Shown here: positions 8,855-23,391 of the stretch, in pieces | Numbering within the stretch: position 1 is the stretch's first letter | Layout of the letters: every line of letters starts with the position of its first letter | From: Clostridiales bacterium | Lineage (GTDB): Bacteria > Bacillota > Clostridia > Christensenellales > Aristaeellaceae | Length of the DNA stretch: 64,000 nt | Assembly (NCBI GenBank): GCA_016930575.1 | Contig: JAFGGL010000050.1 | Span: forward strand, 1 to 64,000 | Reading direction: 5' to 3' | Notes under the pieces: model-generated | The model's input: only the letters and a program-made list of their open reading frames with translations | Told to the model about the DNA's origin: nothing | Database searches by the model: none | Program-made: the position numbers and the translations under genes

Positions 8855-11800
8855 TTACGGGAGTATCACATCTTTTTCGGACGTGAATCCCTTGATAGAT
8901 ATTTCCCTGCCGTTGACGCTTCCCATGATAAAGGCAAAAACCGAAAGCTTTGTCGGCGGGTTCTTGTACAGCAGCGACAGGGGAACCTTTAGTTCCAAAC
9001 ATTCACCGTATGCTACGTCGTAGACGGTCGCAACGACGGTGGACGACGCGTTGAATATATGCGCCTGCCCGCCGAAGGGTAAATACAGCCGAATATTATA
9101 CTTCTCCCTGTTTTCGTTGTAGATGTCGAAGAGAAACTGCGGGAAGATCTGGTAAAACTCCAGGCCGCATCCTTCGTCGTATGAGATCGGCGGGTCGTGC
9201 ACTTCCACCATGAGATACAGAAATTCGCCGTCGCTTACGCCATAGACTTTTTTCAGATCCGTGCCCGGTACGGCGGCGGCAACGCCTCCGCTTATGAAAG
9301 CGGCCAGGGGTTTCACGCCTTTCCAGTCATCCGGCAGTCCGTCGATTTTGATTTCGATATCGTCAAGCAGCGCCCCGACATCGGCTTTCGCCTTCTGCAG
9401 GTCGCCGTCCGCGAGGGTGGCGCCGATGCCGTTCAGCGCCGTACGAAGCGTGGGGTAATCCAGGTCCCTGCCTGTTTTCCAAAACAGCAGAAGGTCCGCT
9501 TTCGCCGTCTCAATCAGGTCGTTGATGTCCCGGACGGCCTTGCCGCGGTCAAGCCGAAGCTCCGCCTTCGATCCGGCGGAATCGAAGGCCACGCTGAAAT
9601 CCTGCACCAAGCCGTCTTCCGTCGATACGCTGATCGTATACTGCCCGCCAAGCCCTGAGAAGCTTGCTTCGCCATTGCAGTCTGTAACAAGGCTCCCGCC
9701 GGATTTCCAGGATTCAAACAATTCCTTCATCGCGGCGTAAGCTTTTTTGGGGGTATAATTCATCGTAAGAAGCTCGGTTCCGATACTGATGATCTTATAC
9801 GGGTCAGTTGCCCATGAGGGATTATCGGGGATTGAATGCATCATCTGAACACCCTGTACGTACGGCAGGCTCATCGCAATTCTATACATGGACGTATTCC
9901 ATTCCGCCTGCGTTTCCTCCGTCATCCCGTCGTGCCAGAATATACCGGTCATCGGGTCTTCGCTTCCGTAATCCTCAACCCTCGTCGGGTAGGAGAACAT
10001 CTCCGTCAGAATGACCGGAAGGCCGGCGAGATCATGATACGCCTGGATGATATCCCGAACCGTGCACAGGTCGATGGGCACCTCGATCACGCCGTGCTGC
10101 AGCTCGATCCCGATATAATCCGGCCGTACTCCGTTATCAAGCATGGTTTTCAATAGTGTATATGGACTTGGCGGGCAAGTAAACTCAGTGCCGTTAAGCT
10201 GAAAGCAATGAAAGGAAGGGCACACCGAGTAACCCAGCTTGATATCAGGAGCGGCATCCCTCGCCGCATCAAACATGATTTTCGTCAGATCGATCATATC
10301 CTGAGTGTTGAGAGCCGTTTGATGATCAGAAACGGCTGATATTATCGTATGGCGGTTTTCTCCGTTTACCGTCAAAGAAGGTTCGACGATAATATTAATG
10401 TACTCTACATTTCCCCTAACGTTCGCAACGGCAGCCTTAACAAATTCCGCCACTTGTTTCTTATAGTTCTCGAAATCCAGGTCGGCAGCCCAGCGTGGCA
10501 CCCAGTCCTCCCCAACGCATGGCATTTGCGCTATGACTCCCCATCCCTGATCCAGCATTCTTTCCAGCATCAAGTTGTACACAAAAAAGTTATTAGTGCT
10601 TTTGGATACGGATATATTCTCCCAGCTTAACTCCCCCATGTCGTATAAATAGTTAAAGCCGATCTCCAGCCCCGCCTTGTAGCTTGGATCCGTACCGCCT
10701 TTGTTGAGGCCTCCGCCGTACCCCAGGATGAAGTCGAGTTCGTTTTGTTCATATGCTACGGTTGCTCCGGTCACGGGCTGCCCCGCTTCGTCTTCGACCT
10801 TGACCGTCAGCGTGCCGTACCTTCCGGCGATGCCTGTGCCGGAAATCTCCATGACCATCGTTTCCTTTGCGCCGATGGAATAGCTGAGCACATCGTACGC
10901 GTACGCGGCTTTCTTCTTCTCATCGCCTTGTGTTCCGGCCTTCAGCAGGCTTGCCTCCCCCGAGGCGAGCGCGTCAAGGACGGCGGAGGAGAAAACGTAC
11001 CCCTGTCCGGTCAGCGATCCCCATTTCTCCCGCGCGCGCCTGTATTCGGTCCTCGCGAACTCGTAGACAAGGTTGACGGTCTGTACCTTGTATTCATCCA
11101 GCAGGTACCCCTCTCCCCCGTTGTCGGCATACAGCGGGATCGTCCCGATACCGGGCACCGTCCACAGCATGATCAGGAATACTCTCTCGTTGGGCGGTAT
11201 GGCGAAATACGGCTTTCCGCCCGCATATGACGCTCCGGGAATCATCGCGTTTCTGAGTTGCCCGATGCTTGCGCGCTGCGGAACGGGCACATCCATGTCA
11301 CCGATGGGAAAGGCTCCGTAGACGGGGCCGTACCAGGAAGGCGATACCCTTTCTTCCAACGCGCCCATCTGCAGCAATTCGCCCTCCGGACTGTAGGCAT
11401 CGAGTTTGAGGGCCGCAATCGCCGGCAGCCGGAAATTGAACTCGATACTGTTCCCTGCGCAAGACACGGTCTTCGTCATTTTGAAATACTTCTGCGCCAG
11501 ATACCCGCCTTTGAATTGAATGTAATGCGCGGGATCGCTTGCCAGAGAATCCGCCGATACGGAAAGCTTTTCCGACCGCGGAACCACGACGCTGAAGCGT
11601 CCGGAATTGTTTGTCCTCAGGCCTGCGACCTCCGTCCAATTCTCGTTCAGGATCCGGATCGTCGCCGGAACGGGCTTTCCGCTTTCGTCCGTGACCTGGC
11701 CGAATACCTCCACGTCCGGTTTCACGGCTTCGCCGTTTTCCGGAACCGTAGATTCCGCCGCGGCCGTTCCCGGGCAAGTCTGTAAACAAAAAGGGCACAA

Positions 11801-11857
11801 TATCAGCATGACTGCGAATACTGCCGCCGCTATGAGCATATTCGATTTTCTGTCCAT
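8855..11857 (-). CDS. Secreted multidomain protein with GH10-like (xylanase-fold) domain
   Basis: Large exported protein of 1000 residues. An N-terminal signal peptide (MDRKSNM, hydrophobic core, cleavage near AAAES) is followed by a carboxypeptidase-regulatory-like beta domain (VFGQVTDESGKPVPATIRI, residues ~45-110), a second such domain (LTVKVEDEAGQPVTGATV, ~350-375), then a TIM-barrel resembling glycoside hydrolase family 10 (~375-720). Likely catalytic acids are Glu in YINIIVEPS and Glu in PVILTEMF; PDYIGIELQHG matches the GH10 strand-6 motif. The Asn usually before the acid/base Glu is absent. The C terminus (~840-1000) looks like a CBM9-type carbohydrate-binding module. GGGAGGGC sets the start at 11857, and a good promoter lies upstream. 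A xylan-type polymer is a guess. Confidence 0.75.
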   Translation of the reverse strand: MDRKSNMLIAAAVFAVMLILCPFCLQTCPGTAAAESTVPENGEAVKPDVEVFGQVTDESGKPVPATIRILNENWTEVAGLRTNNSGRFSVVVPRSEKLSVSADSLASDPAHYIQFKGGYLAQKYFKMTKTVSCAGNSIEFNFRLPAIAALKLDAYSPEGELLQMGALEERVSPSWYGPVYGAFPIGDMDVPVPQRASIGQLRNAMIPGASYAGGKPYFAIPPNERVFLIMLWTVPGIGTIPLYADNGGEGYLLDEYKVQTVNLVYEFARTEYRRAREKWGSLTGQGYVFSSAVLDALASGEASLLKAGTQGDEKKKAAYAYDVLSYSIGAKETMVMEISGTGIAGRYGTLTVKVEDEAGQPVTGATVAYEQNELDFILGYGGGLNKGGTDPSYKAGLEIGFNYLYDMGELSWENISVSKSTNNFFVYNLMLERMLDQGWGVIAQMPCVGEDWVPRWAADLDFENYKKQVAEFVKAAVANVRGNVEYINIIVEPSLTVNGENRHTIISAVSDHQTALNTQDMIDLTKIMFDAARDAAPDIKLGYSVCPSFHCFQLNGTEFTCPPSPYTLLKTMLDNGVRPDYIGIELQHGVIEVPIDLCTVRDIIQAYHDLAGLPVILTEMFSYPTRVEDYGSEDPMTGIFWHDGMTEETQAEWNTSMYRIAMSLPYVQGVQMMHSIPDNPSWATDPYKIISIGTELLTMNYTPKKAYAAMKELFESWKSGGSLVTDCNGEASFSGLGGQYTISVSTEDGLVQDFSVAFDSAGSKAELRLDRGKAVRDINDLIETAKADLLLFWKTGRDLDYPTLRTALNGIGATLADGDLQKAKADVGALLDDIEIKIDGLPDDWKGVKPLAAFISGGVAAAVPGTDLKKVYGVSDGEFLYLMVEVHDPPISYDEGCGLEFYQIFPQFLFDIYNENREKYNIRLYLPFGGQAHIFNASSTVVATVYDVAYGECLELKVPLSLLYKNPPTKLSVFAFIMGSVNGREISIKGFTSEKDVILP

Positions 11858-11980
11858 CGTTTCGCCCTCCCGGGTCGTCATCAAAGAATGGATGAGAGAA
11901 ACCCGCGCCGTGTCGTTTTTACGTCAATCCGGTAACAACAAATCTTTTAGCCGAAGGCAACCGGCTTCCCGATGAATATC

Positions 11981-12124: not shown

Positions 12125-13207
12125 CTATACGTACCGGCCGAATTTCTGCACCGCCTCAAACAGCGCGAAGATGTTTTCCAGCGGTGTGTCCGGCTGGATG
12201 TTGTGCGCGGGCGCAAGCACCAGGCCGCCGCCTTCGCCCGCCTGGGCTATCCTGCGCTTCACCTCGTCCTCCACGTCCTGAACGCTTCCGCGCGGCAGGA
12301 CGTGCTGCACGTCGATGCCGCCGAAGAAGACCAGGTCTTTCCCGTATTCCCTTTTCAAAACGCCCAGGTCCATCCCGCTTGCCAGCGGCTGGATGGGGTT
12401 TAAGACGTCCACCCCGATCCCGATGAAGTCGGGAATCACCGGGGCGACGGCGCCGCAGGAATGGTAGGCGATCTTGATTTTCGGGTTTTTGCTTTTGATC
12501 GCGGCGATGATTCTTTTGTGCAGGGGCTTGATGCGTTCGCGGTATATCTCCGGGCTGATGAGCATGTTCGCCTGCGTTCCGAGGTCGTCCCCCAGCCAGA
12601 TCATATCGCAGGAAAGCTCCGCCAGGCACTCGGCAATCGCGAGATTGAACGCCGTAACCTTCTCCAGCAGGCGGCCGACATAGGCTTCGCCCAGGTACAG
12701 GTCCATCAGGAACTTCTCAAGCCCGACCAGGTTCCAGCACAGTTCGAACACCGTCGCCTCCAGATCGGCGATGACGGCGTACTCCCCGCGGTAGGCTTCG
12801 ATGCGTTGTTTTGCCAGGGTATAGCGGCTGTCAGCCTGCGGGTCGGGCAGGACATAGGCGTCCACGTCCTCCACGGTCTGCGCGCCGGCCAGCGGGCGGA
12901 CAAACGCCTCGTCGTACAGGCCGGCGCGCCGGTAGCGCAGCCCGAACTCGTCTTCCAGTGCGCCGTCCGGTAGCGTACGCGTCGGGCGCTCGCGCCCGGG
13001 CCCGACGCAGACGGCGTCGTTGCCGAGGCGGTTTAATATCTCTACGTGGGAAATGCGCGTGGACAGGAAGGAATCCTCCGCCTCAAACGGCAGCCGCATC
13101 TGTCTGCCGAGGGCTTCGGCGATCTGCGGCGTCAGCGTGGCGAATATAGGGACGCGGTCCGGCTGGCGCTTATCGATCGCGCAGAGGAAACGCTCTCTTC
13201 TGTTCAT
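12125..13207 (-). CDS. URO-D/MtaA-superfamily methyltransferase-like protein
   Basis: Member of the uroporphyrinogen decarboxylase-like family, whose relatives outside haem synthesis (MtaA, CmuA and O-demethylase components) move methyl groups to or from corrinoid proteins. The 360-residue TIM-barrel protein starts MNRRERFLCAID and has the typical DRVPIF N-terminal motif, IWLGDDLGTQANMLISPEIY near residue 200, the probable zinc-binding IAYHSCGAV, and VFFGGIDVQHVLP. The third Cys ligand of MtaA is not seen; the last segment is LAPAHNIQPDTPLENI. The start at 13207 is set by GGAG about 10 bases upstream. It sits behind araC on the minus strand with its own promoter, apart from the main corrinoid operon. 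Confidence 0.82.
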   Translation of the reverse strand: MNRRERFLCAIDKRQPDRVPIFATLTPQIAEALGRQMRLPFEAEDSFLSTRISHVEILNRLGNDAVCVGPGRERPTRTLPDGALEDEFGLRYRRAGLYDEAFVRPLAGAQTVEDVDAYVLPDPQADSRYTLAKQRIEAYRGEYAVIADLEATVFELCWNLVGLEKFLMDLYLGEAYVGRLLEKVTAFNLAIAECLAELSCDMIWLGDDLGTQANMLISPEIYRERIKPLHKRIIAAIKSKNPKIKIAYHSCGAVAPVIPDFIGIGVDVLNPIQPLASGMDLGVLKREYGKDLVFFGGIDVQHVLPRGSVQDVEDEVKRRIAQAGEGGGLVLAPAHNIQPDTPLENIFALFEAVQKFGRYV

Positions 13208-13244
13208 TGGTTTATTCTCCTTGCCCTTGATACTGTCTGCCTGC

Positions 13245-13273
13245 ATTATACATGCGGCCCGCGCGCTTTGCAA
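13245..13273 (-). promoter_or_regulatory. Promoter for the minus-strand URO-D gene
   Basis: TTGCAA (13268-13273) and TATAAT (13245-13250) are 17 bp apart on the minus strand. It lies in the 79-base gap after araC, so this URO-D gene can be transcribed independently of the regulator. Confidence 0.75.
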
Positions 13274-13286
13274 CGAAACGCTGCTC

Positions 13287-14021
13287 TCAGGGCAGGACGG
13301 TATTCCCCTTGCGGAAAGCCGACGGCGTCGTGCCTACGCCCTTTTTAAAGGCGCGGCTGAAGGACTTGATATCCCGGTACCCGGTCGTCTCCGCCGCCTG
13401 CGTGACGGTTCTGCCCTTCGTCAGCTGCAGCCTCGCCTCTTTCATCCGCAGGCTGATGACGTATTGGTAGGGCGTCATTCCGACACTTCTGCGAAAGAGG
13501 CGGACGAAATACTGTTCGTTATAGCCGGCCATCGCGCTCAGCCGGCCCAGCGTGATGTTCTCGCCGATATGCCCGGCGATATACCGGAGCACATCCGAAA
13601 GCGGATGGACCGGCGCGGCGACCAGCCTGTGCTCGACGACGTATAGTTCAAAAACCTCCGCCAGCGCGTACACGAGCCTCCTGTCCTTTTTACCGATCGC
13701 GGCCGCCAGCGCATGCAGCAGGTGCCAAAGGAAGCCGTTTTCCTCTACCCGGCACTCGATGAGCTTAGCGACCATTGAAGGGGATACGTCGATGTGCATG
13801 AAGGTGCAGCGCAGCGGATCGGCGGCGTTTTGCCGCATCCGGTACGGCGAAGCCGACGGAAAGACGTACAGGGTCCCGGGGCGCAGCCGGATCTGCCGCC
13901 GGCTGTCCGCGTAATGGACCTCGCCCCCGTATACGTAATAAACCCGGCAGTACCCTGTCGGAATCTTCTCGTCAATCCGCCAGCAGGCGGAACAGGTGGT
14001 ATTGTCGTATTCCAGCAGCAT
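13287..14021 (-). CDS. AraC-family transcriptional regulator
   Basis: DNA-binding regulator of 244 residues, probably controlling the divergent corrinoid-methyltransferase operon. The N-terminal half is a cupin-type ligand-binding domain (RIDEKIPTGYCRVYYVYGG, LRPGTLYVFPSASPYRM). The C-terminal third has the double helix-turn-helix of AraC proteins: LGRLSAMAGYNEQYFVRLFR for the first helix pair and QAAETTGYRDIKSFSRAFKK for the second. ATG 14021 is chosen over the in-frame TTG at 14036 because GGGGGGC lies just upstream of the ATG. Its ligand is unknown; a methylated substrate of the neighbouring enzymes is the obvious candidate. Confidence 0.9.
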   Translation of the reverse strand: MLLEYDNTTCSACWRIDEKIPTGYCRVYYVYGGEVHYADSRRQIRLRPGTLYVFPSASPYRMRQNAADPLRCTFMHIDVSPSMVAKLIECRVEENGFLWHLLHALAAAIGKKDRRLVYALAEVFELYVVEHRLVAAPVHPLSDVLRYIAGHIGENITLGRLSAMAGYNEQYFVRLFRRSVGMTPYQYVISLRMKEARLQLTKGRTVTQAAETTGYRDIKSFSRAFKKGVGTTPSAFRKGNTVLP

Positions 14022-14044
14022 GGCGCCGCCCCCCAATCTGCCTT

Positions 14045-14073
14045 ATCCTATCAGAGCCGGAACAATAAGTCAA
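14045..14073 (-). promoter_or_regulatory. Promoter of the araC-type regulator
   Basis: TTGACT (14068-14073) and TAGGAT (14045-14050) lie 17 bp apart on the minus strand, about 24 bases before the regulator start codon. Confidence 0.7.
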
Positions 14074-14075
14074 TA

Positions 14076-14125
14076 TATGCGTACTAATTATCAGGTTATG
14101 GGGTTTGATATATCATTTATGCGTA
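14076..14125 (+). promoter_or_regulatory. Direct repeats TATGCGTA, candidate AraC operator
   Basis: TATGCGTA occurs at 14076-14083 and again at 14118-14125, 42 bp (about four helical turns) apart and in the same orientation. The first lies just upstream of the regulator's -35, the second inside the -35/-10 spacer of the divergent operon promoter. AraC-family proteins typically bind direct repeats. Confidence 0.5.
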
Positions 14126-14132
14126 TTATAAT
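14105..14132 (+). promoter_or_regulatory. Promoter of the corrinoid-methyltransferase operon
   Basis: TTGATA (14105-14110) and TATAAT (14127-14132) are separated by 16 bp. AAAAAGGAG then precedes the ATG at 14163. Confidence 0.75.
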
Positions 14133-14162
14133 GGAATACAGACGCAAAAAGGAGAGATCGCT

Positions 14163-15404
14163 ATGAAATTATCCGGCGATGATATAAGCACGCTGCGGGA
14201 GCTGGCCGCTTCCTATATGGAGATCGCGGAGCTTCCGGTGATGCGGGAGAAAATCGAGCTTTGGAAGGCGCTCAACCGCAGCAAGATGCAGCGGCCCATG
14301 GTATGCATCGACCAGCTGCCGTGGGATGAACTGTCCGCCGACGAAACGCTGCAATGCAGGATCGCCGACCCGTACTGGCGGAACGTGGAATGGGAACTGC
14401 GCGCCACGATCTACAAATGGAGGCATTTCCCCGTGGATATGGTGGTGGAGCCGTTCATCACCATCCCCAAGGTGATTGGAAACTCCGGCTACGGGCTGGG
14501 CGCCGAGTGCGACGTGCTCCGGCTCACCGAAGAAACGACCGCGCCGTCACGCCTGTATAAACAGGTGCTGACCGGTTTTGAGGACATCGGAAGAATACAG
14601 GATATGCGCATCAGCGTCGACGCGGCCAAAACGCGGGAGGTATGGGAACAGGCGCAGCATATCTTCGCCGGCGCCGCGCAGCTGATGCAGGGGCACGGGA
14701 TACAGTTCCACCTTGGCGTGTGGGATTACCTCACGGAAGTGATGGGTGTGGAGAACGCCTATATCGACTTTATGGATCGCCCGGACTTCCTGCACGCCTG
14801 CATGGACAGGATCACCGGCGCGGCCATCGCGGGCATCGAGCAGGCCAACGCACTGGGCGTGCACGACGATATTTCAAACCGCTGCCACTGCTCCTACGTC
14901 TATACCGACGAGCTGCTGCCCGGCTGCGGCGAAGGCAAGGGGCCCGTTTCGCAAAACAGCTGGGCTTTCGGCCTTGCGCAGCTGTTCACCTCGGTATCCC
15001 CGCGGATGATGGAGGAATTCGAGATTCCCTACATCTCCCGGATGGCGGAGTACTTCGGCATGATCTATTACGGTTGCTGCGACAGGCTGGACGACAGGCT
15101 GGACATCGTCAAAACGATACCGCATGTGCGCAAGGTCTCCTGCAGCCCGTGGAGCGACAGGAAGCGGTTCGCCGAGGCCATCGGCACGGAGCTGATCATG
15201 TCCAACAAGCCGACGCCGGCCTTCGTCGCTGAAAAGAGCGTCAACTGGGACGCGGTGGAGGCTGATCTGCGGCTGACCGTGGAGCTGGCGAAAGCCAACA
15301 ACGTCAACCTGGAGATGATTTTGAAGGACATCTCCACCGTCGCAAACCAACCCGACAGGCTGACCCGCTGGGCGGACATCGCCATGAAGGTCGTCGGCGC
15401 ATAG
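14163..15404 (+). CDS. URO-D-superfamily protein, first gene of corrinoid operon
   Basis: A 413-residue protein of the uroporphyrinogen decarboxylase-like superfamily, longer than its neighbours. After an N-terminal helical extension the barrel includes VVEPFITIPKVIGNSGYG, GIQFHLGVWDYLTEVMG, SNRCHCSYVYTDELLPGCG and FTSVSPRMMEEFEIPYISRM. At the usual zinc-site position it has MIYYGCCDRLDD, with Tyr-Gly-Cys in place of His-X-Cys, and no late Cys. It probably acts on a methylated substrate with the corrinoid protein encoded next, but it belongs to a divergent branch and its reaction is unknown. The start has AAAAAGGAG at 8 bases. Confidence 0.78.
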   Translation: MKLSGDDISTLRELAASYMEIAELPVMREKIELWKALNRSKMQRPMVCIDQLPWDELSADETLQCRIADPYWRNVEWELRATIYKWRHFPVDMVVEPFITIPKVIGNSGYGLGAECDVLRLTEETTAPSRLYKQVLTGFEDIGRIQDMRISVDAAKTREVWEQAQHIFAGAAQLMQGHGIQFHLGVWDYLTEVMGVENAYIDFMDRPDFLHACMDRITGAAIAGIEQANALGVHDDISNRCHCSYVYTDELLPGCGEGKGPVSQNSWAFGLAQLFTSVSPRMMEEFEIPYISRMAEYFGMIYYGCCDRLDDRLDIVKTIPHVRKVSCSPWSDRKRFAEAIGTELIMSNKPTPAFVAEKSVNWDAVEADLRLTVELAKANNVNLEMILKDISTVANQPDRLTRWADIAMKVVGA

Positions 15405-15578
15405 CACAATAAGTGTTAAGGCGTATAGAAAAGTGGGCGTCACGACCCTGTACAGGGAATAGACGGCGTGATAGAATAGACGAAACGAAAACGGGCAGCG
15501 CCGCAGCCGGTCTCGCCATGATCGATATATTCGCGGCAGGAAGAATATATACTGTTCAGCATACGGAAGGAGCAACTC

Positions 15579-16214
15579 ATGAATCTGTTTGAGGAAATCT
15601 CGGAAAATCTGCAAAAGGGAAACGCGAGGGGCGTTAAGGATCTGGTGCAGCAGGCCATCGACGAGAGGCGTCCGGCCAAGGAGATCCTGGATGAGGGGCT
15701 GCTCAGCGGCATGAGCATCATCGGAGAAAAGTTCAAGAACAACGAGATCTTCGTCCCGGAAGTCCTGGTCGCGGCGCGCGCCATGAACATGGGTGCGGCG
15801 CTGCTGAAACCGCTTCTCAAGGAAGCGGGCGTCAAGGCGTGCGGCAAGGCATGCATCGGCACGGTGAAAGGCGATCTGCACGACATCGGGAAAAACCTGG
15901 TGAAAATGATGATGGAGGGCAAAGGCTTCGAGGTGATCGACCTCGGTACGGATGTCGCCCCCGAAACCTTTGTGGAGACGGCCGCGAAGGAAAACTGCCA
16001 GATCATCTGCCTGAGCGCGCTTCTGACCACGACCATGTCCGGCATGGAGGACGTAGTGAAGGCCGCGGAGGCGGCGGGTATCCGCGACAAGGTAAAGATC
16101 ATGGTCGGCGGCGCGCCGCTGACCGACGCGTTCTGCCGGAAGATCGGCGCGGACGCCTACGCGCCCGACGCGGCCAGCGCGGCGGACAAGGCGGTAGAAT
16201 TCTGTTCCGCCTGA
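15579..16214 (+). CDS. Corrinoid (B12-binding) methyl-carrier protein
   Basis: Methyl carrier of the cluster: holds a cobalamin whose cobalt accepts a methyl group from one methyltransferase and hands it to another. The 211 residues are a complete MtaC/MttC/MtvC-type protein. The N-terminal helical B12-binding 'cap' (residues ~1-85) has EILDEGLLSGMSIIGEKFK. The Rossmann-like cobalamin domain has GTVKGDLHDIGKNLV, with the axial-ligand DxHxxG motif at ~106-111, then ICLSALLTTTMSGM and VKIMVGGAPLTDAFC. GAAGGAGC precedes the ATG. The 174-base gap before it contains the palindrome CCCTGTACAGGG (15446-15457) and may hold an internal control site. It is the only carrier in the window for six URO-D-like proteins. 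Confidence 0.93.
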   Translation: MNLFEEISENLQKGNARGVKDLVQQAIDERRPAKEILDEGLLSGMSIIGEKFKNNEIFVPEVLVAARAMNMGAALLKPLLKEAGVKACGKACIGTVKGDLHDIGKNLVKMMMEGKGFEVIDLGTDVAPETFVETAAKENCQIICLSALLTTTMSGMEDVVKAAEAAGIRDKVKIMVGGAPLTDAFCRKIGADAYAPDAASAADKAVEFCSA

Positions 16215-16245
16215 AAATACCGATTCCCCTGAAAGAGGCATAACG

Positions 16246-17373
16246 ATGAACCACAGGGAACGCGTACACGCGGTGCTCCACTATCGGCCGTACGACCGCA
16301 TGCCGCTGGTATCCTTCGGGTACTGGCCGGAGACGCTTACAAAATGGGCGGCGCAGGGCCATATCGAAGCCGAAGACGCCGAAGGCTACCGCCGGGACGG
16401 GGACAACGCGCCCGCGGACAGGCGTGTGATGAGAAAACTCGGCTTTGATTTCAACTGGTGCTCCACGGTGGGCGGGAACAGCTACCTGATGCCGCCCTTC
16501 AAAGAGGAAACGCTGGAGACGAAACCGGACGGCAGCCGCATCATCCGCAACGCCGAAGGGCTGATCGAAAAGGTCAACGACGCTATCGTGTCTATCCCGG
16601 CCATGGTCGGCACCTCGCTTACGGGGCGCGAAGCCTGGGAGGAACTCTACCTGCCGAGGCTCACGTTCAGCCCGGATCGGGTGGACGCGGAGACATTCCG
16701 CGCCCTGGCAGCGGAAAGCGGTCAACGGCTGCTGCCCCTCGGGCTGCAGGTGGGCAGCCTCTACGGCAACATCCGAAATATCCTGGGCGTGGAGGAGCTG
16801 AGCTACCTCGCCGTGGACGACGAGGTGCTCTACCGGGAGATCATCGACACCATCGGAAATTTATGCTATCAGGTTGCCGAAGCCGTATTGGCCTTCGGCG
16901 TCGCCTTTGATTACGCGCATTACTGGGAGGACATCTGTTTCAAGAACGGCCCGCTGATCAACCCGGCGGTGTTTAGAGAACTGGTCGCGCCGCATTACGC
17001 CCGCATCGGCAAACTGCTTTTATGCCACGGGATCGACATCACGTCGGTGGACTGCGACGGTTGCGTGGACCTGCTGGTGCCCGTATGGCTTGAAAGCGGC
17101 GTGAACACCATGTTCCCCATTGAAGTCGGCACGTGGAATGCCAGCGTCGCGCCGTGGCGCAAGTGCTACGGCAAAGAGCTACGGGGCGTGGGCGGCATGG
17201 ACAAGCGGGTCTTCGCGCAGGACAGATCCGCGGTGGACGCGGAGATTGAAAGGCTGAAGCCGCTGGTGGATCTGGGCGGGTACATCCCCTGCCCCGACCA
17301 CAGGATTCCCCCGGACGCGGAATTCGGCGTCACGGCGTATTACTGCGAGGCGTTCCGCAAAGCCTTCGGCTGA
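16246..17373 (+). CDS. URO-D-superfamily methyltransferase-like protein
   Basis: 375-residue member of the uroporphyrinogen decarboxylase-like family, following the corrinoid protein by 31 bases. It starts MNHRERVHAVLHYRPYDRMP, with the usual R-x-P loop, and has FDYAHYWEDICFKNGPLINPAVF near residue 220. Its C terminus carries the signature LGGYIPCPDHRIPPDAEF seen in a branch of URO-D proteins that act with corrinoid carriers. The His-X-Cys of MtaA is replaced by a VDCDG segment. A role as substrate-specific methyltransferase I, for example on a methoxylated or N-methylated compound, is inferred from position. Confidence 0.8.
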   Translation: MNHRERVHAVLHYRPYDRMPLVSFGYWPETLTKWAAQGHIEAEDAEGYRRDGDNAPADRRVMRKLGFDFNWCSTVGGNSYLMPPFKEETLETKPDGSRIIRNAEGLIEKVNDAIVSIPAMVGTSLTGREAWEELYLPRLTFSPDRVDAETFRALAAESGQRLLPLGLQVGSLYGNIRNILGVEELSYLAVDDEVLYREIIDTIGNLCYQVAEAVLAFGVAFDYAHYWEDICFKNGPLINPAVFRELVAPHYARIGKLLLCHGIDITSVDCDGCVDLLVPVWLESGVNTMFPIEVGTWNASVAPWRKCYGKELRGVGGMDKRVFAQDRSAVDAEIERLKPLVDLGGYIPCPDHRIPPDAEFGVTAYYCEAFRKAFG

Positions 17374-17398
17374 CGAACGGAAGAAGTGAACCCATCCA

Positions 17399-18403
17399 AT
17401 GAATACAGTAAAACTGCTTTGGGACGCGGCGCGCGTCGGCAAGAAACGCGCCCTGCCCATCCTGTCCTTCCCCGCGACGCAGAAGCTTGGCGTCACCGTC
17501 AGGGACATGACGCAGGACGCCCAGACGCAGGCGCGGGTGATGGCGCTCATCGCGGCGCAAACGCCGACCATCGCGGCGGTCGGGCTGATGGACCTGTCCG
17601 TGGAGGCCGAGGCCTTCGGCGCGAATATCCGCTTTATCGAGAAAGAGGTACCGGCCGTGATCGGGCGGCTGGTGGACGGCGCTCAAGCCGCCGAAGCGCT
17701 GTACGTGCCCCCGCTTGACAAGGGGCGCGCCGCGCTGTTTGCCGATGCCATGAAGCTGGCCAAGCAGTACGTGCCGGACAAGCCGGTGCTGGCCGGCGCG
17801 ATCGGCCCGTACTCGCTGGCGGGGCGCCTGATGGACGTGACGGAGATTTTCTTCGCCTGCTTTGACGAACCCGAAACGGTGCACAGGGTGCTTGAGAAGG
17901 CGACGGAGTATATCATCGCCTACTGCAAATCCTTCAAGGCTGTTGGGACCGACGGCGTGGTGCTGGCCGAACCGCTGGCGGGGCTTTTGAACCCGGATAT
18001 GGCGGAAGAATTCTCCAATCCCTATGTCGTAAGGATTTTGGACGCCGTCCAGACGGAAGAATTCCCGGTGATCTACCACAACTGCGGCGGCGCGGCGGCG
18101 AAAATGCTACCGGAGCTTTTTTCCATGAAGGCGGCGGCGTATCATTTCGGGAACGCGGTCGATATGCAAGAAATCATGAAGAACGCGCCTCCGGACGCGC
18201 TGTGCATGGGCAACATCGACCCGGCGGGGCCGTTTGTCTCCGGCACGCCGGAGGAGATGCGCGCCGCGGTTTTCAACCTGATGGACAAGTGCGCGAAGTA
18301 CCCGAATTTCCTGGTCTCGTCGGGCTGCGACATCCCCGCGCACGCGAGCTGGGAGAACATCCGCGCCTTCTTTGACGCCGTGGCGGACTATAATGAAAAG
18401 TGA
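17399..18403 (+). CDS. MtaA/CmuA-type corrinoid methyltransferase
   Basis: 334-residue URO-D-superfamily protein closest in motif content to MtaA/CmuA methyltransferases, which transfer a methyl group between a corrinoid protein and an acceptor. It alone in this cluster keeps all three expected zinc ligands: His and Cys in VIYHNCGGA (near residue 222) and the late Cys in VSSGCDIPAH (near 307). Other family motifs are GPYSLAGRLMDVTE and CMGNIDPAGPFVSGTPEEM. It could be the common methyltransferase II of the system, whose acceptor in a bacterium would be tetrahydrofolate or a thiol (inference). Its last 11 bases overlap the next gene. Confidence 0.85.
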   Translation: MNTVKLLWDAARVGKKRALPILSFPATQKLGVTVRDMTQDAQTQARVMALIAAQTPTIAAVGLMDLSVEAEAFGANIRFIEKEVPAVIGRLVDGAQAAEALYVPPLDKGRAALFADAMKLAKQYVPDKPVLAGAIGPYSLAGRLMDVTEIFFACFDEPETVHRVLEKATEYIIAYCKSFKAVGTDGVVLAEPLAGLLNPDMAEEFSNPYVVRILDAVQTEEFPVIYHNCGGAAAKMLPELFSMKAAAYHFGNAVDMQEIMKNAPPDALCMGNIDPAGPFVSGTPEEMRAAVFNLMDKCAKYPNFLVSSGCDIPAHASWENIRAFFDAVADYNEK

Positions 18404-18953
18404 AACCAGCCTCGTGACGACCGAGAAGCTTAAAGCGCTGATCCTCTCGTGCGGCGCGGAAAAAGCGGCCGTCATTCCAAACGACAGCATCGTGTTATCG
18501 GCGGATTTTCGGGAAATCTGCAAGAGCAACGCCTGCGGGAATTACGGGCAGTGCCACATGTGCCCGCCGGACGTCGGCGGTATAGGAGAGCTGATACGGC
18601 GCGTGCGGGCTTTCGATACCGCGGTGCTGTACCAGTCGGTGTACACGCTGGAAGATTCGTTCGATTTCGAAGGCATGCAGGCGGCGGGCAGGGCGTTCAA
18701 CCGCATGTCCCGCCTGATTCACGGAAAAGCGCAGAAAACCCTCACGCGGCCGTTCCTGCATCTGGCGGCGGGCGGATGCGGTTACTGCGAAACCTGCGCC
18801 AAGAAAGAAAACCTGCCCTGCAGGGAGCCGGAGCAGGCGCTGCCTTCCCTGGAAGCCTACGGCGTGGACGTGTACCGGACGTCGTTAAACGCGGGGCTCA
18901 AGTATATCAACGGAACGGATACCGTGACCTATTTCGGGATGCTGTTAATCTAG
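18393..18953 (+). CDS. DUF2284 predicted metal-binding protein
   Basis: 186-residue cysteine-rich protein of the DUF2284 family. Two Cys clusters are visible: CKSNACGNYGQCHMCPPDVG (residues ~45-64) and GGCGYCETCAKKENLPCREP (~125-145), consistent with one or two iron-sulphur clusters. The ATG at 18393 overlaps the end of the methyltransferase gene; the reductive activator starts 12 bases after its stop. The family has no firmly assigned reaction, but this position between methyltransferase and activator suggests an electron-transfer or assembly role in keeping the corrinoid in the Co(I) state. Confidence 0.85.
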   Translation: MKSETSLVTTEKLKALILSCGAEKAAVIPNDSIVLSADFREICKSNACGNYGQCHMCPPDVGGIGELIRRVRAFDTAVLYQSVYTLEDSFDFEGMQAAGRAFNRMSRLIHGKAQKTLTRPFLHLAAGGCGYCETCAKKENLPCREPEQALPSLEAYGVDVYRTSLNAGLKYINGTDTVTYFGMLLI

Positions 18954-18965
18954 AAAGGCAGAACC

Positions 18966-20486
18966 ATGAGCACGCTCAGAATCAAGCGGGGAGGCAAGGA
19001 GATCAGCGTCGCGTTTGACGGCGCTGGTTTGCTTACGCAGGTACTGCGCGAACACGGGATGATGATCGCGACGCCCTGCGGCGGCAAAGGCGTCTGCGGC
19101 AAGTGCAGGGTGCGGGCCGAAGGCGCCCTGTCCGCGCCCACGGCCAGAGAACGGGCGTGCCTTTCCCCCGAAGAGATCGCCGGCGGTACGCGCCTTGCCT
19201 GCCAGACGGTGCTTCAAGGCGACGCGGTGGTCTCCGTCCCGGACGCCTCGGATTTCATGAATATCCAACTGGAAGGCACGCTGCCGGAATTCCCCCACCA
19301 CCCGATGAAGGGCCGATACGGCCTGGCGGCGGATATCGGCACCACCACGCTGGCGCTGCGGCTTGTGGACCTCAAGCGGCGCGCGCTGCTCAAGGCCGCG
19401 GCCGCGGTCAACCCGCAGAATGGCGTCGCCGCGGACGTGATCGGAAGGATCGAGGCGGCGCTGAACGGCGAGGGCAAAATGCTGCAGGCGCTCGTGACCA
19501 GAGAAATCGAGAATACGCTACAATCCCTTTGCGCGGACTGCGGGATCTCCTCCGGCGAAATCGGACCTGCCGTTATGGCCGGGAACACCACGATGCTCTA
19601 CCTGCTCACGGGCCGGGACCCGACCACGCTGTCCCGCGCGCCGTTTGCGGCGGATTGCCTGTTTCATCTGCGGACGGACGGCGGAGCCCTTGGGATGCGC
19701 TCCGTCGCCGGGGTGAATATCTGCCTGCCCGCCTGCGTCGGCGCGTTTGTTGGCGCGGATATCGTCTGCGGCGTGCTGGCTTCCGGGATGTGCAAGCGGA
19801 AGGATACGGCAATGCTTGTGGATTTGGGAACCAACGGCGAGATCGCGCTGTGGCACGGGGGAACGCTGTATTGCTGCGCCACGGCCGCAGGCCCGGCTTT
19901 TGAGGGCGCGAATATACGCCACGGGGCCGGCAGTGTTCCCGGCGCCATCGACAGCGTTTGGGTGCAGGGCGGGCGGCTTGCCTATACCACGATGGGCGGC
20001 CGGAAACCCGTGGGCATCTGCGGCTCGGGGCTGATCGACGCGACGGCGGCGATGCTGAAGCTGGGCCTGGTCGATGAAACGGGGCTGATGGAAGCAGACG
20101 AGGTCTTCATAAGCGACGACATCGGCCTGACGCAGAAGGATATCCGCAGCATCCAGCTTGCCAAGGGAGCCATCGCCGCCGGAATCAAAACCATCTGCGG
20201 GCATGTGGGGATTTCGGCCGGTCAGATCGAAACGCTCTACATCGCCGGCGGGTTCGGCAGCCATATCTCCGTTTTGAACGCCGTCGCCATCGGCCTAATT
20301 CCCCGGGAGCTGACCGGCAGGGCCGCCGTGCTTGGCAACGCGTCCCTGACGGGCGCGGAGATGATGCTACTCAATGAATCGTACGTGGAAAGCGCCGCGA
20401 AACTGGCGCACAGCGCTGTTTCCGTGCCCCTGGGTGGCAGCGCCGCCTTTGCGGAGCATTACATGAATAGCATGATGTTTGACTAA
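18966..20486 (+). CDS. RACo-type corrinoid reductive activator (2Fe-2S + ASKHA)
   Basis: ATP-dependent activator that re-reduces accidentally oxidised Co(II) corrinoid protein to Co(I). The 506-residue protein has an N-terminal ferredoxin-like domain with a plant-type 2Fe-2S pattern (CGGKGVCGKCRV near residues 39-50 and a fourth Cys in RLACQT). A linker and a C-terminal ASKHA ATPase (DUF4445) follow: GLAADIGTTTLALRLVDL (~122), VMAGNTTMLYLLTGRDP, MLVDLGTNGEIAL (~284), GSVPGAIDSV and YIAGGFGSHI (~425). It is the only activator in the window and lies in the run of methyltransferase genes, so it probably serves the single carrier at 15579. Confidence 0.93.
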   Translation: MSTLRIKRGGKEISVAFDGAGLLTQVLREHGMMIATPCGGKGVCGKCRVRAEGALSAPTARERACLSPEEIAGGTRLACQTVLQGDAVVSVPDASDFMNIQLEGTLPEFPHHPMKGRYGLAADIGTTTLALRLVDLKRRALLKAAAAVNPQNGVAADVIGRIEAALNGEGKMLQALVTREIENTLQSLCADCGISSGEIGPAVMAGNTTMLYLLTGRDPTTLSRAPFAADCLFHLRTDGGALGMRSVAGVNICLPACVGAFVGADIVCGVLASGMCKRKDTAMLVDLGTNGEIALWHGGTLYCCATAAGPAFEGANIRHGAGSVPGAIDSVWVQGGRLAYTTMGGRKPVGICGSGLIDATAAMLKLGLVDETGLMEADEVFISDDIGLTQKDIRSIQLAKGAIAAGIKTICGHVGISAGQIETLYIAGGFGSHISVLNAVAIGLIPRELTGRAAVLGNASLTGAEMMLLNESYVESAAKLAHSAVSVPLGGSAAFAEHYMNSMMFD

Positions 20487-20530
20487 ACGACGCGGACGAA
20501 ACGGCGGCGCAGGCCGGCGGGAGGGCGGGT

Positions 20531-21556
20531 ATGAAAAAGCGGACGCCGGAATTTGACAATCTGCTGTGCGCGTTCAAACGGGAGGTTCCGTCCAGGCCGA
20601 CGCTGTTTGAGCTTTTTATGAACATGCCCCTGTATGAGGCGGCAAACGGCCGCAGGTTTCCGGGCGGCGGTATGCTTGGCGAGCTCGCCTTCACCGCCGA
20701 AGCCTTTGCCGGGCTGGGATACGATTACGTAACGGCCAAGGCCAGCGCCATGGCGTTCCCAACCCGCGGGCAGGAACACCTGGATATGATCTCCCTCAAC
20801 GACGGCGGGATGGTGCACGATTGGGAAAGCTTCGAACGCTATCCCTGGCCGGATCCCGACGGCTATGACTGCAGCCATCTGCGGGATATCAAAGCCCGCC
20901 TGCCGGGCAACATGAAGCTGATGGTGATGGGCCCGGGCGGGGTGCTGGAAAACGTGACGGCGATCGTCGGCTACGAAACCCTGTGCTACCTGCTGTACGA
21001 GGAGCCGGAGCTGGTCGAGGCGCTGTTTGCCCAGGTGGGGCGGCGCCTGCTGCGCTATTACGAGCGCGCGCTGGACTTTGATACCGTCGGCTTCCTGTGT
21101 TCCAACGACGACTGGGGATTCAACACGCAGACCTTCCTGTCGCCCGAATCGATGCGGCAATACGTTTTCCCGTGGCACAAGCGCTACGCGGACCTGGCCC
21201 ACGAGGCAGGCAGGCCCATCCTCCTGCATTCCTGCGGCAACCTGCGGCAGGTGATGGCCGACGTCGTTTCCATGGGGTTTGACGCGAAACATTCCTTTGA
21301 GGACGGCATCCAGCCGGTGGAGGAAGCCTACGAACAATGGCACGGCAGCCTGTGCATCGCCGGCGGTATCGACGTGGATTTCATCTGCCGTGAAAGCGAG
21401 GACGTGATAATGGAGCGCATCCGCACCATGATGGAAAGGACCGGCGCGCGGGGCGGGTATCTGGTCGGCACCGGAAACAGCGTGCCCGCATATATGCCGC
21501 AAAACAAATATCTGGCGATGGTCAGGGAAGCCATCGGCTATGATCCCTTAGCATAA
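20531..21556 (+). CDS. URO-D-superfamily methyltransferase-like protein
   Basis: 341-residue uroporphyrinogen decarboxylase-like protein, 44 bases after the activator and preceded by GGGAGGGCGGG. Motifs include RPTLFELFMNMPLYE, a CSNDDWGFNTQTFLSPESM segment near residue 195, the probable metal site ILLHSCGNL near 233, IAGGIDVDFICRESED and the C-terminal LVGTGNSVPAYMPQNKYLAM. It keeps His-X-Cys but has Gly-Asn-Ser where MtaA has the third Cys. It probably gives the shared corrinoid protein access to another methyl donor; the substrate is unknown. Confidence 0.8.
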   Translation: MKKRTPEFDNLLCAFKREVPSRPTLFELFMNMPLYEAANGRRFPGGGMLGELAFTAEAFAGLGYDYVTAKASAMAFPTRGQEHLDMISLNDGGMVHDWESFERYPWPDPDGYDCSHLRDIKARLPGNMKLMVMGPGGVLENVTAIVGYETLCYLLYEEPELVEALFAQVGRRLLRYYERALDFDTVGFLCSNDDWGFNTQTFLSPESMRQYVFPWHKRYADLAHEAGRPILLHSCGNLRQVMADVVSMGFDAKHSFEDGIQPVEEAYEQWHGSLCIAGGIDVDFICRESEDVIMERIRTMMERTGARGGYLVGTGNSVPAYMPQNKYLAMVREAIGYDPLA

Positions 21557-21576
21557 ATCAAAGGAGGCGCTTGCGG

Positions 21577-22596
21577 ATGACGGGAAGGGAACGCTACCGC
21601 GCATTGCTTGAAAAAAGAAAGGCGGACAAGGTCGGGTTTTGGATGGGAAACCCCCACGACGACACGCTGCCCGCCTACTTCCGGTATTTTAACGTCGGCA
21701 GCAAGGAAGCGCTCGGCCAGGCGCTGGACGACGATTTTGCGTGGCTTCCCGCGGATCTGAACTACTGGCGCCATCCCGGAAACGAGCCGGTATTCGACCT
21801 GCTCAACGGACAGGAGCGCCATTCCCTGGGCCAGCCCGGCGCGTTCGCCGAGTGCGGGGACGTGCGGGAGGTGGACGCGTATCACTGGCCGGACGTACGG
21901 CATATCGATCTGGACCTTCTGGAGAAGGATATCGACAAAACGATCGCAAAGGGCATGGGCGTGGCAAGCGGTACTTGGTCGTGCTTTTTCCACATCGTTG
22001 CGGATTTCTTCGGGATGGAGAATTACTTCATCAAAATGTATACGGATCCGGACGTCGTGCTTGCGGTGACGGAGCACGTGATGGCGTTTTACCTGGAGGC
22101 GAACCAAAGGATCTATGACCGTATGGGCGGGAAGATCGACGCGTTGTTCCTAGGCAACGATTTCGGCAGCCAGCAGGATCTGCTGATCAGCCCGGATTGC
22201 TTTTCCAGGTTCGTGCTTCCGTACTTCAGGCAATTGATCGACCAGGCCAAGCGCGCCGGGCTGTACGTGATGCTGCATTCCTGCGGCTCCATCGACCGTG
22301 TGATCCCCCTGCTGATCGACGCGGGCATCGACGCGCTGCACCCGCTGCAGGCCAGGGCGCGGGGAATGAATGCGGAGAATCTTCAAAAATACAAGGACGA
22401 CATCCTGTTCGTGGGCGGCGTGGACACGCAGGAACTGCTGCCGTTCGGCACGCCGCAGCAGGTGAAGGCCGAGGTGCGCAGGCTAAAGGACATCTTCGGC
22501 ACAGGCTGGGTGGTATCGCCCAGCCACGAGGCGCTGCTACCCAATGTGCCGCCCGAAAACCTGCTCGCCATGCACGACGCCGCCATGGAAGGGTAG
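21577..22596 (+). CDS. URO-D-superfamily methyltransferase-like protein, last gene of operon
   Basis: 339-residue URO-D-like protein closing the corrinoid operon. Visible motifs are MTGRERYRALLEKRKADKVG, FLGNDFGSQQDLLISPDCF near residue 190, the likely zinc site VMLHSCGSI near 230, ILFVGGVDTQELLPFGTPQQ and the C-terminal VVSPSHEALLPNVPPENL. The late Cys ligand is replaced by a Ser-His pair. AAAGGAGG (21560-21567) is 9 bases before ATG 21577, which is preferred to the in-frame TTG at 21571. No obvious terminator follows; a new promoter starts at 22666. Confidence 0.8.
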   Translation: MTGRERYRALLEKRKADKVGFWMGNPHDDTLPAYFRYFNVGSKEALGQALDDDFAWLPADLNYWRHPGNEPVFDLLNGQERHSLGQPGAFAECGDVREVDAYHWPDVRHIDLDLLEKDIDKTIAKGMGVASGTWSCFFHIVADFFGMENYFIKMYTDPDVVLAVTEHVMAFYLEANQRIYDRMGGKIDALFLGNDFGSQQDLLISPDCFSRFVLPYFRQLIDQAKRAGLYVMLHSCGSIDRVIPLLIDAGIDALHPLQARARGMNAENLQKYKDDILFVGGVDTQELLPFGTPQQVKAEVRRLKDIFGTGWVVSPSHEALLPNVPPENLLAMHDAAMEG

Positions 22597-22722: not shown

Positions 22723-23391
22723 ATGTTTAAAAAATGGTTCGGCAAAAAGACGGAAGCTGCGCCGCAGAGCAAACCTTCCCCGGACAAGGTTTACTTTGAG
22801 CGCGACAACAAAGGCACGCGTTACGAAAATCACAGCGCAGTATTGGCCTATTGGATGGCACGCACAAACAAGATCCAGAAGGATCCGTTTGTCATGTATG
22901 ACTTCCCCAACGAGCAAATGGCGCACGACGCGCTGGCTTCCATGCCGTTTATCCACAAGGCGCAGGACAGCCGCAAGCTGATCTGTACGGAATGCTTCGA
23001 ATACGGATGTTATGCGGTCGTCGAGGACAATGTGCCCACCGGCCAATATGAAGCCATGGTCGTCGGAAAGTCCATGACTTATGAGGAGTTCAAACAGGTC
23101 AAAGAAGCCTTTGAGAAGTTCGGCGGCAAACGCAGAAACGACCTCGAACCTGAAAAGACAGCCGCCAAACCCAAAACAAAAGGCAATGTCAAACCAGCGA
23201 AGTTCAAGCATAAGGAAGTTAAAAACTCAGCGCACGGAACGTTCGTCTACATGGTATACACCGCGCCCAACAAGGCCTCGGCGATGGCGTTTTTGGAGAA
23301 TGAGACCGTTTCGCAGCATCACTACTACATCGTCGTAGAGACGCCGGAAGGCGCATTCGGCCGGGATATCGACGGGATATACGAGGAGTAA
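22723..23391 (+). CDS. Conserved-looking protein of unknown function
   Basis: 222-residue soluble protein that I do not recognise. A lysine-rich start (MFKKWFGKKTE) leads into a domain of ~100 residues (KVYFERDNKGTRYENHSAVL to TYEEFKQVKEAFEKFGG) containing a CTECFEYGC cluster. A low-complexity Lys/Pro linker (~residues 140-165) joins it to a small second domain with FVYMVYTAPNKASAMAFLEN and YYIVVETPEGAFGRDIDGIY. There is no signal peptide or membrane segment. It has its own sigma-A type promoter and a good CCGGAGG site, so it is probably expressed as a single gene between the corrinoid operon and the mannosidase. Confidence 0.75.
   Translation: MFKKWFGKKTEAAPQSKPSPDKVYFERDNKGTRYENHSAVLAYWMARTNKIQKDPFVMYDFPNEQMAHDALASMPFIHKAQDSRKLICTECFEYGCYAVVEDNVPTGQYEAMVVGKSMTYEEFKQVKEAFEKFGGKRRNDLEPEKTAAKPKTKGNVKPAKFKHKEVKNSAHGTFVYMVYTAPNKASAMAFLENETVSQHHYYIVVETPEGAFGRDIDGIYEE

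Follow-up and report, generated by a model that had tools for sequence, protein, structure and literature searches.

The known corrinoid methyl-transfer systems closest to the locus analysed here are the type 1 mlp gene clusters. The locus is a ten-gene corrinoid methyltransferase island at 12125-22596 of a 64,000-nucleotide stretch (the window) from a Clostridiales bacterium (contig JAFGGL010000050.1, assembly GCA_016930575.1). Both contain several proteins of the uroporphyrinogen decarboxylase (UroD) family, one corrinoid protein and one Ram/RACo-type activator, both occur in anaerobes, mostly Firmicutes, and in both a tetrahydrofolate methyltransferase is missing from the cluster or, in some genomes, altogether. 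The type 1 clusters carry Mlp2 and Mlp3, nearly all with a His-Cys-Cys zinc site and linked to sulfur and selenium genes, whereas one island enzyme has this site and five do not. The island differs further in having DUF2284 in its core and in donor genes that can be found elsewhere as satellites within glycan operons. Its flanks carried carbohydrate genes, AraC and genes without assignment and no selenium- or sulfur-metabolism genes, although no genome-wide sel search was made. An unannotated cluster of Acetoanaerobium noterae (L293:6000-12600), with several UroD genes (three of them His-Cys-Cys), a carrier and RACo, is probably a type 1 mlp cluster.

Other described systems share parts of this composition. 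The island enzyme designated U4 has the fold, the His-Cys-Cys ligands and the best NCBIfam matches in common with MtaA and MtbA (PRK06252, E 9e-42; PDB 4ay7), but its scores lie far below the curated NCBIfam cut-offs (98.0 against 400 bits for MtaA, 105 against 600 bits for MtbA). The aromatic O-demethylases (MtvABC, OdmABCD, MtoABCD) and CdmBCA also combine a UroD-fold methyltransferase I, a carrier and a RACo-type activator; unlike the island, all of these use a pterin-binding methyltransferase II directed to tetrahydrofolate or tetrahydromethanopterin, and in most of them each carrier has a single methyltransferase I. The likeness to MtgBCDE of Ruegeria pomeroyi (PMC12478193) lies in one free-standing carrier shared by demethylation and, in relative G003, probably homocysteine methylation; MtgB, however, belongs to PF06253 and MtgD is pterin-binding, whereas the island donors are UroD-fold proteins and no pterin module was found. 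A free-standing carrier and a reactivation protein are likewise shared with split methionine synthases, whose pterin and homocysteine (PF02574) modules were not found in the island's own genome. Judged from its sequence, the island appears to work like a corrinoid demethylase in which methyltransferases I and II have the same fold.

We propose, giving it about an even chance of being correct, that the island is a hub-and-spoke system for corrinoid methyl transfer, in which several UroD-fold donor enzymes load the carrier Car, from which U4 transfers the methyl group to a thiol. Under this proposal, the ATP-dependent RACo together with the Fe-S-like DUF2284 protein would keep Car in the Co(I) state, and X2, X3, U1, U5 and U6, with their altered, non-thiolate sites, would each demethylate a different small molecule onto Car. 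U4 would then move the methyl group from methyl-Car to a thiol (homocysteine or sulfide) instead of tetrahydrofolate, and the AraC regulator would probably induce the system. The donors may be O-methylated compounds from plant glycans, such as methyl sugars, methyl uronates and methyl cyclitols. The island consists of the following features:

12125..13207, minus strand: U1, UroD-fold protein with site H-C-H (Pfam URO-D, E 2e-31); strand shared with the AraC and GH10-like genes
13287..14036, minus strand: AraC-family regulator (HTH_18, E 2.6e-22), divergent from the main operon
14037..14162, no strand: divergent promoter region with a promoter-like site at 14105-14132 (consensus matches only)
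14163..15404, plus strand: X2, divergent UroD-fold protein with a weak Pfam URO-D match (E 0.046) and conserved YGCC[DE] and [KR]D motifs
15579..16214, plus strand: Car, corrinoid methyl carrier (Pfam B12-binding and B12-binding_2)
16246..17373, plus strand: X3, divergent UroD-fold protein with a weak Pfam URO-D match (E 0.01) and a D-x-D ... PDH site
17399..18403, plus strand: U4, UroD-fold protein with a His-Cys-Cys zinc site (YHNCG ... SGCDIP); Pfam URO-D above cut-off
18393..18953, plus strand: DUF2284, cysteine-rich protein predicted to bind metal (Pfam, E 3.9e-42)
18966..20486, plus strand: RACo, protein of the ATP-dependent corrinoid reductive activator type, with Fer2 (2Fe-2S), RACo middle and C-terminal domains (Pfam)
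20531..21556, plus strand: U5, UroD-fold protein with site H-C-N; Pfam URO-D above cut-off
21577..22596, plus strand: U6, UroD-fold protein with site H-C-H; Pfam URO-D above cut-off, 31% identity to U1

Two classes of UroD-fold enzyme

Pfam searches and predicted models confirmed the gene content given by an initial annotation of the island, namely one carrier, one RACo-type activator, one DUF2284 protein, one AraC regulator and six URO-D-type proteins, the last sharing 20-31% pairwise identity. The annotation had placed all six in the URO-D/MtaA superfamily, which held for every one of them at the level of the fold; at the Pfam URO-D cut-off it held for U1, U4, U5 and U6, while X2 and X3 fell below. 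Models of X2 (pLDDT 80) and X3 (pLDDT 77), for which small sets of aligned relatives were used, gave UroD (Z 18.9 and 21.9, respectively) and MtaA (Z 16.0 and 19.5) as the best structural matches, with the next unrelated fold at Z ~12. Since both models match these structures first, all six are predicted to be URO-D-fold proteins, and the comparison of predicted models excluded unrelated folds for X2 and X3. Searching PDB sequences returned no match for X3 and enolase noise only for X2.

The zinc-ligand columns, read from an alignment with MtaA (PDB 4ay7), divided the six enzymes. U4 alone carried His-Cys-Cys, the only thiol-type site of the island, whereas the ligands were His-Cys-His in U1 and U6, His-Cys-Asn in U5 and Asp-Asp-His in X3; X2 had Gly and Cys in the first two columns and no ligand in the third. 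The U4 motifs YHNCG and [ST]GCD[IV]P, which line up with the zinc ligands of MtaA, were kept in 99 of 100 relatives, and the exception, LHNCG, differed by one residue. According to Kountz & Balskus (PMC10418091), His-Cys-Cys is a mark of sulfur and selenium methyltransferases, and replacement of the Cys ligands is a mark of O-methyl enzymes; by this rule, we infer that U4 is the thiol enzyme and the other five are donor enzymes, which would also set the direction of each reaction.

A phylogenetic tree, built without OdmB or MtvB reference sequences, showed the same division. The U4 clade grouped with MtaA, the Acetoanaerobium noterae Mlps and HemE (support 98/92) as a clade of its own (100/100), apart from the three presumed Acetoanaerobium noterae Mlps; all five donors of the window (U1, U5, U6, X3 and X2) fell outside this group, and X2 joined further divergent UroD-like genes found in clusters of this type. 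The six enzymes, which the initial annotation had treated as equals, therefore fall into two classes, U4 and the other five, and its suggestion that UroD-fold enzymes carry out both donor and acceptor reactions on one carrier gained support from the U4-only thiolate site and the tree. The HemE-like placement of all six that it had named as speaking against its reading was not observed, none of the six reaching the HemE cut-off (best score 61.8 against a curated 302.95 bits), and the own genome contained no HemE-type URO-D protein besides the island-like ones.

On the acceptor side, the own genome (95% complete) had no match to Pterin_bind (PF00809; MetH, FolP, AcsE, MtvA), Meth_synt_2 (MetE) or S-methyl_trans (PF02574), making tetrahydrofolate an unlikely acceptor. 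The earlier observation that a pterin-dependent methyltransferase is missing thus holds genome-wide by profile search, no genome-wide MttB/MtaB search having been made. Across 27 genomes searched, most of them hub-bearing, pterin-binding proteins were absent or of MetH length. In the relative G003, a PF02574 homocysteine S-methyltransferase gene (E 5.5e-52) precedes the X3 ortholog by 31 bp; this operon-like pair was divergent from Car-DUF2284-RACo-U1, and U4 gave no match in G003 at the search threshold. The arrangement suggests two alternative modules for unloading the carrier, U4 and the homocysteine S-methyltransferase. MetA, considered as proof of a methionine need, had no match in the own genome; homocysteine is accordingly not proven as the acceptor, and sulfide is an equal candidate. 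The organism probably depends on the gut for both methionine and folate.

A conserved hub and its proposed variable spokes

Searching the carrier against 396 genomes of the order and a U4 profile against GTDB genome contigs recovered many clusters, in which Car, U4, DUF2284 and RACo recurred together across many genera of gut Clostridia, often with an AraC gene. Among the 40 U4 loci flanked by 6 kb or more in both directions, Car lay within 7 kb of U4 in 29 cases, RACo in 22, DUF2284 in 22 and AraC in 18. The recurrence of this core in many genomes argues that the island is not a product of chance, and conservation beyond one strain, which the initial annotation had singled out for checking, extends to many genera. 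The number of donor-type genes within 8 kb was variable among 73 other hubs (none in 31, one in 27, two in 10, three in 3 and four in 2), compared with five in the window. The closest whole-cluster relative, L208, has the order X3-Car-UroD-U1-X2-U4-DUF2284-RACo. Close X3 homologs adjoined Car in L208, L177, L161 and L100 and lay in the same hub in L181.

X2 occurred in 50 of the 250 genomes of the family, often standing alone. A stand-alone carrier was found in 43 of the 50 genomes with X2 compared to 31 of the 200 without it (odds ratio 33, p 5e-21, a statistic that ignores kinship; carriers were hand-counted from the listed matches in open frames of at most 400 aa). U4 was also tied to stand-alone carriers (29/33 versus 45/217 genomes). 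In our reading, a lone X2 gene is a satellite donor that serves a distant hub. One cultured isolate from the gut, Subdoligranulum variabile TSDC17.2, has a 110-kb element with U4-DUF2284-RACo and AraC-X2 (L294, OY725838.1 100680-109843).

The genes surrounding lone X2 pointed to glycans. The top 25 families among 52 partner genes in lone-X2 operons included alpha-L-rhamnosidase, GH28, GH38 (two), GH39, GH42 and MGH1-like hydrolases, and no glycosidase appeared among the top 25 families of 52 control genes taken from those contigs. A close U5 homolog adjoined both a GH29 alpha-L-fucosidase gene and a hub (L134), and sugar ABC transporter and Gfo/Idh oxidoreductase genes came after the hub of L054. 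On a plasmid of the cultured Peptoclostridium acidaminophilum (L292, NZ_CP007453.1 387398-402390), sugar ABC, GH123-type and corrinoid protein genes stood in one row, which also held a His-Cys-Cys UroD protein and a 213-aa protein. Because the satellite donor genes sit in operons for glycan degradation and sugar transport, O-methylated plant-glycan compounds appear to be the most likely donors. No description of corrinoid demethylation of methyl sugars was found in the literature searched. Taken together, the interpretation given in the initial annotation is partly supported, and what sets the island apart from systems already described is its division into core and spokes, the lack of thiolate sites in the donors, the presence of DUF2284 and the glycan context.

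Some hubs had different neighbours. The carrier hubs of one genus (L097, L099, L248) adjoined formiminotransferase, urocanase and imidazolonepropionase genes of histidine degradation. In the hubs of G047 and G019 (L093:4371-5282; also L097:11946-12854), a gene for a CobW-type GTPase, possibly a metal chaperone, was located between a U4-like gene and DUF2284 in place of the usual neighbour; this 303-aa protein had been considered as a pterin methyltransferase and was rejected on its identification as the GTPase. In the literature searched, DUF2284 and corrinoid were mentioned together only in a selenoproteome review, once each.

Layout, regulation and genomic setting

All ten genes were open at their positions in the list of open reading frames. 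On inspection of the sequence, the starts are probably ATG 18393 for DUF2284, overlapping the U4 stop, ATG 21577 for U6 (listed reading frame 21571) and ATG 13207, rather than TTG 13273, for U1. The genes from X2 to U6 are co-stranded with intergenic gaps of -11 to 174 bp, and AraC and U1 are transcribed in the opposite direction from a common promoter region. In this region a 14-bp repeat occurs twice in direct orientation, at 14073-14086 and 14115-14128 (42 bp apart); the two copies are possible AraC operators. A regulon extending beyond AraC's own promoter was rejected, the other weak matches to the repeat in the window being at chance level and none occurring in the neighbouring 20 kb. Control by a riboswitch of known type was rejected: Rfam gave no match of any kind in the window, and 14 related loci yielded only a tRNA and a glycine riboswitch. 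Car was the sole B12-binding_2 protein found in a genome-wide search.

The island is flanked in the window by an arabinose operon, which includes a sugar ABC transporter, by a GH2 mannosidase and by the following gene:

8855..11884, minus strand: large GH10-like protein; domains CarboxypepD_reg and, as a weak match, glycosyl hydrolase family 10 (E 3.5e-7)

This gene lies 241 bp downstream of U1 on the shared strand and is possibly co-transcribed with it. Immediately downstream of the island, positions 22723-23391 of the window encode a 222-aa protein without a Pfam match. A fifth Pfam-level URO-D protein of the own genome, with site H-D (G000:C74:65367-66311; L052:5368-6312), is a possible satellite donor; its gene lies ~43 kb beyond the downstream end of the island and has a miaA-like gene and a GH3 glycosidase gene as neighbours. 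A contaminating or mis-binned contig was ruled out by tetranucleotide composition, the correlation of the contig with its own genome being 0.957-0.976, compared with 0.948-0.982 for other own contigs and 0.60-0.92 for other genomes.

Alternative explanations and significance

Several points weigh against the hub-and-spoke proposal. To our knowledge, His-Cys-His and His-Cys-Asn sites have no characterised precedent. Of the 73 hubs, 31 lack a recognised donor in their vicinity, some contigs being short; the association of X2 with carriers lacks a phylogeny correction, and the PF00809 search among lone-X2 genomes covered G126 and G076 only. A methionine role is not obvious in this organism, as MetA had no match in the own genome. 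Hub operons had mixed neighbours, with no consistent sugar genes and sometimes histidine degradation, and sugar-ABC permeases were not enriched beside lone X2 (9/52 versus 6/52 local controls); methyl sugars and cyclitols are for these reasons a lead and not a result. Finally, U4 could itself be a donor enzyme for a methyl-sulfur or methyl-selenium compound, since its position in the tree and its zinc site also fit the Mlps, which include an enzyme acting on selenide (PMC10418091). Extended to the whole island, this would give a variant of mlp-type salvage, in which U4 demethylates methylselenol or methylthiol compounds and the other UroD proteins demethylate other methyl-sulfur or methyl-selenium metabolites, all onto Car. 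The parts list is that of the type 1 clusters (several UroD homologs, a carrier, Ram/RACo and no tetrahydrofolate enzyme; PMC10418091), and U4, near the Mlps and MtaA, has the site typical of sulfur and selenium enzymes. We nevertheless regard this salvage as unlikely, because five of the six enzymes depart from the His-Cys-Cys that type 1 Mlps nearly always have, and the neighbours are carbohydrate genes, with no gene for selenium or sulfur metabolism in or beside the island.

Somewhat less likely is that the hub serves to form methionine from homocysteine independently of folate, using methyl groups that the spokes scavenge; it would then be a split methionine synthase in which UroD donors take the place of the methyl-folate module. 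The pairing of homocysteine S-methyltransferase with the X3 ortholog in G003, the lack of MetH, MetE or PF02574 matches in the own genome, and the precedent of a split methionine synthase sharing its carrier with a demethylase (Ruegeria pomeroyi MtgBCDE, PMC12478193) all agree with it; against it, the organism, with no MetA match (MetX was not searched for), may take up methionine, and other hub genomes have kept MetH. Gut Clostridia do O-demethylate aromatic compounds, and the island shares a UroD-fold methyltransferase I, carrier and activator with the Odm, Mtv and Cdm systems (PMC13222342). An ordinary aromatic O-demethylase island of the Odm/Mtv type, with its pterin methyltransferase II encoded elsewhere or missing from the assembly, is nevertheless improbable, given that the 95% complete genome has no Pterin_bind match, that 26 others, most of them hub-bearing, have none of AcsE or MtvA size, that a conserved His-Cys-Cys enzyme fills the methyltransferase II slot, and that U1 and X3 had no CdmB match among PDB sequences. 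We give even less credence to a corrinoid-independent role of X2, X3 and perhaps other spokes in glycan metabolism, with their position near the hub due to chance: X2, which has no His-x-Cys site, is often found far from carrier genes in glycan operons, but it tracks the stand-alone carrier within the same genome (43/50 versus 31/200), and close X3 homologs adjoin Car or share its hub at the five loci named above.

Returning to the hub-and-spoke proposal, its more specific form is tentative and clearly less secure: gut Clostridia may O-demethylate plant sugars and cyclitols without oxygen by means of a UroD set and one carrier, the methyl group going to a thiol (homocysteine or sulfide, for example) without tetrahydrofolate. 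Examples of the donors would be 4-O-methylglucuronate, 2-O-methylfucose, 3-O-methylrhamnose and pinitol. Plant fibre commonly contains methylated sugars and ethers. In the literature searched, the anaerobic systems described mostly deliver methyl groups to folate, their substrates being aromatic ethers, amines or haloalkanes, and demethylation of 6-O-methylgalactose, a methyl sugar of red algae, uses an oxygen-dependent P450 (PMC10033563). If correct, the specific form would represent an anaerobic counterpart of this P450 reaction. A modular, multi-donor, folate-bypassing hub, widespread among gut Clostridia, would account for many orphan genes annotated as 'uroporphyrinogen decarboxylase family' in gut genomes, and it would offer a testable route for methyl flow to methionine or volatile methyl sulfides. 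The island suggests modular, folate-independent demethylation of dietary plant compounds by anaerobes.

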